64,000 nt of DNA from a virus. The DNA is taken from IMG/VR virus record IMGVR_UViG_3300027805_000008, positions 1 through 64,000 of that record; one strand, given 5' to 3'. The position numbers were made by a program, and so were the translations under genes. A model generated the notes under the pieces. The model did not search any database, was not told the origin of the DNA, and saw only the letters and a list, made by a program, of their open reading frames with translations. Every line of letters starts with the position of its first letter. Positions within the stretch are counted from its first letter, which is position 1. Below, in pieces: positions 8,888 through 10,263 of the stretch.

Positions 8888-9080
8888 ATTAGCCTAATAT
8901 GGGCGCACTATATAGACAAAACGGACATTTATAAACTCTGGATCATACAAATAAAATCTCTATTAACATTTTAGTAAATCTGATATTGTGGTTGACTGAA
9001 ATATATAGTAGAATGATCACATGATAAAAAGCGGGAACCGAATATAAAGCTTTACCTAACAAGCCTTAAGTAAAGGCTAA

Positions 9081-9155
9081 GGGGATATAGCTTAATCTGG
9101 TTAAAGCATTTGTCTTATATACAAACGACTCTGGGTTCAAATCCCAGTATCCCTA
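9081..9155 (+). tRNA. tRNA-Ile (anticodon UAU)
   Basis: The acceptor stem GGGGATA/TATCCCT (one G-U pair), a D-stem GCTT/AAGC, an anticodon stem TTTGT/ACAAA with loop CTTATAT, and a T-arm CTGGG/CCCAG with TTCAAAT fold as a tRNA. The anticodon TAT reads AUA directly, instead of the usual lysidine-modified CAU. The discriminator is A and no CCA is encoded. AUA is frequent in the genes of this phage, so the tRNA probably supports its codon usage. Confidence 0.85.
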
Positions 9156-9409: not shown

Positions 9410-9517
9410 ATGGCTGCTAATAGAACTGTTACTTGTGATAAATGTGGGCGGGAGATCGAAGTAAGATCTGGATTTGCCCATGCAACACTATATAACCACT
9501 ATAGAGCATGTAAATGA
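9410..9517 (+). CDS. Zinc-finger microprotein (35 aa)
   Basis: MAANRTVTCDKCGREIEV then HATLYNHYRACK, a C-x2-C plus H-x4-H-x3-C pattern of a small zinc finger. A TTGACT, 17 bp, TACAAT promoter ends about ten bases before the ATG and there is no ribosome site, so the message may be leaderless or nearly so. Nucleic-acid binding is plausible. Confidence 0.6.
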   Translation: MAANRTVTCDKCGREIEVRSGFAHATLYNHYRACK

Positions 9518-9578: not shown

Positions 9579-9695
9579 ATGATTAAATGTGATTTCTGTG
9601 ATAATCAAAAGTATGTTGAAAGATTAAACAGTAAAGGTGTGCTAGAGAATTACTGTGTAAATTGTATTGATAAATTAAAAAGGCGGGAAAGCTAG
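9579..9695 (+). CDS. Zinc-ribbon microprotein (38 aa)
   Basis: MIKCDFCDNQKYVERLN then YCVNCIDKLKRRES, with two CxxC pairs 19 residues apart and a basic tail. The upstream 50 bases repeat a segment found at about 8967-9021 (ATTTTxxTAAATCTxATATTGT...GACT), so a duplicated promoter probably drives it. There is no clear ribosome site. DNA or RNA binding is inferred from charge and cysteines. Confidence 0.55.
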   Translation: MIKCDFCDNQKYVERLNSKGVLENYCVNCIDKLKRRES

Positions 9696-9751: not shown

Positions 9752-10036
9752 ATGAAGTCCGAAAAGCTCTCTATAGCCAAGCAGAAGGCTCATTTGGCTA
9801 CATATATCAGAGACCTTAAAGAAAAATCTCCTTGTAGAGACTGTGGGAAGTTTTATCCATACTATGTCATGGATTTTGACCACGTCCGTGGCAAGAAGCA
9901 TGCAAATGTTATGGAACTTATTCCCACATTGTCTAAAAAGAAGATAGATGAAGAAATTGCTAAATGTGAGATCGTATGTTCTAATTGTCATCGTATTAGG
10001 ACACATATGAGACGTATAGCTAAAAAGAGTAAATAG
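9752..10036 (+). CDS. HNH endonuclease-like protein (94 aa)
   Basis: C28-x2-C31 and C76-x2-C79 bracket FDHVRGKK (D43, H44), and the end reads CSNCHRIRTH. This is the zinc-stabilised HNH fold found in free-standing phage endonucleases of about 90-110 aa. The D-H pair and NCH motif supply the catalytic and metal residues. It lies among tRNA genes, a common site for homing-type or packaging-associated HNH genes. No terminase lies nearby, so a homing or accessory role is more likely. Confidence 0.75.
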   Translation: MKSEKLSIAKQKAHLATYIRDLKEKSPCRDCGKFYPYYVMDFDHVRGKKHANVMELIPTLSKKKIDEEIAKCEIVCSNCHRIRTHMRRIAKKSK

Positions 10037-10113: not shown

Positions 10114-10186
10114 TGGACCATAGCTCAGTTGGCAGAGCGTAGAGCTGTTAACTCTAATGTCCCAGGTTCGAGCCCTGGTGGTCCAG
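10114..10186 (+). tRNA. tRNA-Asn (anticodon GUU)
   Basis: TGGACCA/TGGTCCA acceptor, TAGAG/CTCTA anticodon stem with loop CTGTTAA, and CCAGG/CCTGG T-stem with TTCGAGC. The discriminator is G, as expected for Asn. No CCA is encoded. A TATAAT lies a few bases upstream. Confidence 0.9.
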
Positions 10187-10190
10187 CAAA

Positions 10191-10263
10191 CTCTTCGTAG
10201 CTCAGAGGACAGAGCATTCGGTTTCTACCCGACTGGTCGCAGGTTCGACTCCTGCCGAAGAGA
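10191..10263 (+). tRNA. tRNA-Arg (anticodon UCU)
   Basis: CTCTTCG/CGAAGAG acceptor, TCGG/CCGA anticodon stem with loop TTTCTAC, and GCAGG/CCTGC T-stem with TTCGACT. It reads AGA, an abundant codon in this AT-rich phage and usually rare in Actinobacteria. It lies four bases after tRNA-Asn, so the two are probably cotranscribed. Confidence 0.9.

Follow-up and report, generated by a model that had tools for sequence, protein, structure and literature searches.

Most bacteria read the isoleucine codon AUA with a tRNA whose CAU anticodon is modified with lysidine, although exceptions with a UAU anticodon have been described in both bacteria and phages. Lysidine is not formed at U34, and a tRNA with the anticodon UAU therefore needs no TilS. 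The DNA analyzed here, a stretch of 64,000 nucleotides (the window) from a 91,329-base virus contig (G000), raises the question of what such a gene does in a phage. The sequence-only reading had placed a tRNA-Ile with a UAU anticodon at positions 9081-9155, had rightly set it beside the usual CAU system, and had proposed that the phage frees itself from TilS-limited tRNA in its host.

The tRNA-Ile(UAU) gene and its fold

ARAGORN and Infernal call the same tRNA at 9081-9155 on the plus strand, with the same anticodon, UAU. Infernal scores it at 73.2 bits with the Rfam tRNA model (RF00005), against a gathering score of 29 (E 4e-14), which makes it a member of the tRNA family. The acceptor stem is GGGGAUA/UAUCCCU (with G1-U72), the D-stem is GCUU/AAGC, and the T-arm is CUGGG-UUCAAAU-CCCAG. 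The core positions U8-A14, A15-U48, G18 and G19, the T-loop UUCAAAU, and the discriminator A73 can also be read from the letters. The anticodon loop of seven nucleotides (CUUAUAU) is closed by a 5-bp stem (UUUGU/ACAAA), and the anticodon is thus not shifted. No CCA is encoded, and the base following A73 is C in all 46 contigs that contain an exact 27-mer of the tRNA core.

The predicted minimum-energy fold of the unmodified transcript alone differs from the exact cloverleaf, as can be expected of tRNAs rich in A and U. Covariation is the stronger evidence for the cloverleaf. The family comprises 84 genes in 83 virus contigs (the window's own gene included), all with the loop CUUAUAU, and 21 distinct sequences. 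Among these 21, 437 of 441 pair cells (99.1%) are standard, and the four non-standard cells all lie at the outermost pair of the anticodon stem. Five pairs change on both sides, giving 28 such cells compared with 6.1 in shuffles, and the signal is abolished when the pairing partners are shifted. The covarying pairs are found in the acceptor and T-stems, while the D-stem, the T-loop and A73 are invariant. The two programs, the all-UAU homologues and the covariation together bear out the original call and rule out a shifted anticodon or a pseudogene.

All 84 genes have UAU at positions 34-36 and A37 within the seven-nucleotide loop, as in the TilS-independent Ile3 (UAU) class, and two further features of this class, A73 and U12-A23, are invariant in the 21 distinct homologues. 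The minor isoleucine determinants of the E. coli type, C4-G69 and C29-G41, do not define the anticodon class, and the window has G4-C69 and U29-A41 in their place. Position 4-69 is G4-C69 in 16 of the 21 homologues and C4-G69 in four, and U29-A41 is found in every one. Position 38 of the window tRNA is U. Phage-encoded tRNA-Ile(UAU) is already known, and 9081-9155 is a well-conserved further case.

A conserved family, its leader and its neighbors

The UAU anticodon recurs in searches of different design. A pattern in which positions 34-38 were free and the remainder of the arm was constrained returned the identical 46 loci, 46/46 with UAU. A pattern containing leader letters only, and no tRNA letters, found 68 viral places. 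In 63 of these, tRNA-Ile(UAU) follows immediately 3' (63/63 UAU), with the full leader CGAATACGCTA(A/G)TCCCT(A/T) directly 5' of the gene, as at L302:2048-2064 and L126:1027-1043; the five places with no adjoining tRNA-Ile(UAU) are L311, L315, L325, L331 and L340. In 32 of the 46 tRNA-chosen contigs, CGAATACGCTA (at most one mismatch) begins 18, 19 or 22 bases 5' of the tRNA. Our search of the literature on phage UAU tRNAs found no description of this conserved family, its leader, or its possible repeated origin.

The gene is accessory. Thirteen long records picked for tRNA-Ile(UAU) carry exactly one copy each (59 tRNAs classified), and 0 of 18 records picked by their capsid protease gene carry one (eight of them yielded the 25 tRNAs classified; several are fragments). 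The protease was matched in 10 of the 13 tRNA-chosen records, and in 16 of 19 searched overall, a set that also took in G000 and five tRNA-less records. Since the protease is found in tRNA-chosen records, the tRNA-bearing and tRNA-less groups are one clade. Among 80 loci reached via a neighboring virion gene, apparently a mixture of many phage lineages, 72 show no tRNA.

In the copies read, small upstream ORFs of different kinds finish within the leader, with CGA AUA CGC stop. The phage seldom uses CGA or CGC (1.6 and 1.8 per 1,000 codons), and the leader is therefore more likely constrained in its nucleotides than in a peptide. The window has a broken form (9039-9080), interrupted after CGAATA. 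An 8-codon ORF at 9021-9047 on the plus strand (MIKSGNRI and stop) holds part of the leader element, which is cut short by a replacement segment at 9045-9080 on the same strand. This segment takes the position where the leader normally ends with CGCTA(A/G)TCCCT(A/T), is found in the window and in L127, and is predicted to form a hairpin with the stem AGCCUU/AAGGCU. In many relatives, the equivalent ORF runs on as ...CGA AUA CGC UAA and abuts the tRNA. At L093:8798, a hydrophobic micro-ORF seems to enter the tRNA and to terminate at a UAG within the 5' end of the gene, which would make the mRNA and the tRNA overlap.

Other short elements surround the gene. The motif T(A/G)GT(T/C)GACT occurs at 8989, 9372 and 9558, shortly 5' of the micro-ORFs 9021-9047, 9410-9517 and 9579-9695; it has seven matches in the window compared with 3.1 expected and is possibly a phage promoter or operator. 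A sigma-70 scan near the tRNA gave only a weak match (9/12) at 8980-9009. The micro-ORF 9579-9695 (plus strand) encodes a 38-aa zinc-ribbon-like microprotein with two CxxC pairs, resembling an ORF that in many relatives directly precedes the tRNA; here it lies downstream.

An HNH endonuclease gene (9752-10036, plus strand; PHROGs HNH endonuclease E 7e-22) lies between the two tRNA sites and may help tRNA genes to move. In many tRNA copies, TCCCTA stands at both ends (leader end and tRNA end) as a short direct repeat. These features, together with the fixed leader, would fit a gene kept as DNA, for recombination or integration, or an RNA that is processed and left uncharged; Tomikawa, in 2018, is said to have found the UAU tRNA of L. 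plantarum uncharged. We regard such a relic or non-coding role as highly improbable, because compensatory changes maintain the cloverleaf around an unvarying anticodon, which argues for use as a tRNA.

G000 encodes only four tRNAs. tRNA-Asn(GUU) at 10114-10186 and tRNA-Arg(UCU), which reads AGA/AGG, at 10191-10263 are both on the plus strand and are called by ARAGORN and Infernal. The AGA-reading tRNA that had been described as a neighbor of tRNA-Ile thus exists, but it lies 1.0 kb downstream, beside tRNA-Asn(GUU), rather than next to it. The fourth tRNA, with the anticodon CAU, is outside the window at 73680-73753. In its family, the anticodon arm is near-invariant and the acceptor stem is variable. 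The TilS determinants of tRNA-Ile2(CAU) are C4-G69 and C5-G68. The tRNA at 73680 has both, and both are kept in only 6 of 14 related CAU tRNAs (its own included; one unlike CAU tRNA of G086 was left out). Its annotated close matches are tRNA-Met, the best with 85% identity over 80% of the query. It appears more like elongator Met and is called Met here, with Ile2 as a possible alternative. A PstS-like phosphate-binding protein (PHROG E 8e-34) is encoded at 74185-75222 of G000, and Cpn10, Hsp20, thioredoxin and MazG are encoded elsewhere in this genome.

The phage, its host and AUA codon use

G000 is Stanwilliamsviridae-like, as judged from gene order and core proteins. It shares with the Streptomyces phage Annadreamy (Stanwilliamsviridae) the order of glycosyltransferase, RNR, portal, protease, capsid, helicase, primase, SSB and DnaE, and its RNR and protease are 67% and 45% identical to those of Streptomyces phages. 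At the DNA level, the first 25 kb had no match among 50,697 phage records. WhiB, which serves to assign phages to Actinobacteria according to the text available of PMC6802176, is present in G000 and in 11 of the 21 records searched (G000 counted). Kinship to the Streptomyces phages and WhiB together indicate that the host is probably an actinobacterium. The phage has a GC content of 38%, and low-GC lineages occur among freshwater Actinobacteria, as described in the same source (PMC6802176). We infer a freshwater host from this GC content and from kinship to low-GC actinophages described from fresh water. A scan of genome contigs for PstS gave one match, a Bdellovibrionales MAG; WhiB was found in none of 58 genomes drawn as its relatives.

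AUA makes up 457 of the 1,537 isoleucine codons (29.7%; 19.3 per 1,000 codons) in ORFs of at least 100 aa, and AGA makes up 460 of the 832 arginine codons, in line with the sequence-only reading that both are common in these genes. A TilS gene was found neither in G000 nor in 20 related records (0/21).

A host without TilS might itself read AUA with a UAU tRNA, like Bifidobacterium, in which case the phage would match its host and escape nothing. In the text available of PMC8450103, tRNA-Ile(UAU) replaces CAU in 17 bacterial genomes, including that of the actinobacterium Bifidobacterium, and the low-GC freshwater Actinobacteria of PMC6802176 make an unusual AUA system conceivable. Against this, an exact 23-mer of the tRNA was found in 0 of 84,980 bacterial and archaeal genomes, a search that a diverged host UAU tRNA would escape. 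Streptomyces has CAU and TilS, as do mycobacteria. For the latter, a survey of 244 mycobacteria describes 12 with a UAU tRNA, plausibly from phages, beside CAU and TilS (PMC6582537, PMC9569102, as far as their available text goes). Altogether, we consider host matching very unlikely.

Codon use also bears on the proposed escape from TilS. In capsid-region stretches, AUA accounts for 25.3-40.1% of isoleucine codons in ten records with the gene and for 23.1-35.2% in five records without it in their sequenced part; two of the latter, G063 and G065, have almost the same values and could represent a single phage. The share is 19.9-37.0% in seven further fragments in which tRNA-Ile(UAU) was not seen. 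In Annadreamy, AUA is only 1.2% of isoleucine codons, and yet a tRNA-Ile(UAU) is annotated. Because the shares are similar with and without the gene, and because of Annadreamy, AUA demand is a poor explanation of the gene in the family as a whole, and codon demand as its sole cause is unsupported by this comparison. Escape from TilS-limited tRNA is therefore possible but unproven. A real phage tRNA with no need for TilS, heavy use of AUA, and the lack of a TilS match in the 21 records stand on its side, but as a cause it is not supported: the tRNA-less relatives use AUA nearly as much, Annadreamy has the gene with AUA rare, and nothing shows a limiting TilS-made tRNA in the host.

The case of Annadreamy, where demand alone is insufficient, would suit a different role, in which the tRNA stands in for host tRNAs lost to cleavage or decay in the infected cell and its altered loop (U34, U38) evades an anticodon nuclease. 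The Streptomyces relatives encode many tRNAs, Ile(UAU) and Ile(GAU) among them, along with RNA ligase and polynucleotide kinase. However, this 91-kb phage record has only four tRNAs, and we know of no host nuclease that cuts tRNA-Ile here. Nuclease evasion is in print as a hypothesis for mycobacteriophages, although a mention of Ile was not found in the available text of that source (PMC10264068). We consider this role unlikely for 9081-9155.

Origin and function of UAU tRNAs in phages

Annadreamy and Yaboi, both Streptomyces phages of the Stanwilliamsviridae, have annotated tRNA-Ile(tat) genes with the same anticodon, and Annadreamy shares gene order with G000. However, their UAU tRNAs are only 61.3% identical to that of 9081-9155 and lie within large tRNA sets, and AUA is rare in Annadreamy. 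The crAss-like phage cr85_1, whose host we take to belong to another phylum, also encodes a tRNA-Ile(UAU), identified by its anticodon, but this gene is 62.7% identical and lies in a large tRNA array. None of these is the nearest relative. The closest non-UAU tRNAs compared are phage tRNA-Ile(GAU), with 74.7, 72.0 (two) and 70.7% identity; the GAU loci came from searches favoring the D-arm of 9081-9155, and three of them are included purely to illustrate phage tRNA-Ile(GAU). The best match, in L344, has an identical D-arm and 5' half of the anticodon arm. A crAss-like tRNA-Lys (72.0%) and a tRNA-Ala of Yaboi (72%) come close, and the best CAU tRNA reaches 64%. The gene probably descends from a tRNA-Ile1-type gene that changed at position 34, an origin to which the comparison points weakly since a tRNA-Ala scores nearly as high. 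The UAU tRNAs of Annadreamy and Yaboi apparently have separate origins from it, and several independent origins of phage UAU tRNAs fit the low identities, although 75-base genes give weak trees.

UAU tRNAs are also found in cellular systems. In Mycoplasma mobile, in Bifidobacterium and in the tilS bypass of Bacillus subtilis, AUA is likewise read by a U34 tRNA without lysidine, but these genes are cellular, and M. mobile has changes in IleRS and the ribosome. Fabret (2011) is said to have found that B. subtilis survives the loss of TilS when it recruits a tRNA gene. The UAU tRNA of M. mobile depends on the changed IleRS for charging and failed on E. coli ribosomes (PMC4014445), and the IleRS of lactic acid bacteria has been studied for acceptance of a UAU tRNA (a title cited in PMC9976931). 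M. mucogenicum, which has TilS, also expresses a tRNA-Ile(TAT) that plausibly came from a phage (PMC6582537); the mycobacterial genes, compared with 9081-9155 by description only, are of the same type but chromosomal. Among L. curvatus prophages, one of ten Ile tRNAs has UAU (PMC10688831), and phage MIJ3 takes the opposite path by encoding a TilS homologue (PMC6892783). For these sources, too, the statements hold for their available text.

We think it fairly probable that 9081-9155 encodes a functional tRNA-Ile (the type also named tRNA-Ile3) that reads AUA without lysidine and adds to or insures AUA decoding for a Stanwilliamsviridae-like phage whose host is a freshwater bacterium, probably an actinobacterium. 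U34 can pair with A3, with no lysidine needed. The tRNA would be transcribed together with the short upstream ORFs and then trimmed, and the host would add CCA. Host IleRS may charge it with isoleucine, and it would read AUA by U34-A3 pairing, supplementing or insuring decoding during translation of the AT-rich phage genome. The fold with its covariation, the all-UAU loci, the invariant D-stem, T-loop and A73, the frequency of AUA and the 21 records with no TilS found argue for a working tRNA, as do the expressed M. mucogenicum tRNA and the reported B. subtilis bypass. Counted against it, the need of M. mobile for a changed IleRS and the reportedly uncharged L. plantarum tRNA indicate that charging by a bacterial IleRS is not guaranteed; the absence of C4-G69 and C29-G41, U38, and the accessory status of the gene also weigh on this side.

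For the window, the outcome is mainly the confirmation of a correct tRNA call. For the family, the 21 distinct sequences from 83 virus contigs are a clean natural set for asking how a UAU tRNA is accepted by bacterial IleRS and ribosomes; work on this question has so far concerned Mycoplasma, lactic acid bacteria and B. subtilis. There is perhaps a slim chance that phages gained lysidine-free AUA tRNAs repeatedly since the TilS-dependent AUA decoding of their hosts is unreliable in infection, and that the leader's CGA AUA CGC stop, which holds the tRNA's own codon, lets tRNA supply feed back on its own operon. Should phages have gained UAU tRNAs more than once although TilS is retained in their hosts, the decoding of AUA may be a point of weakness during infection.
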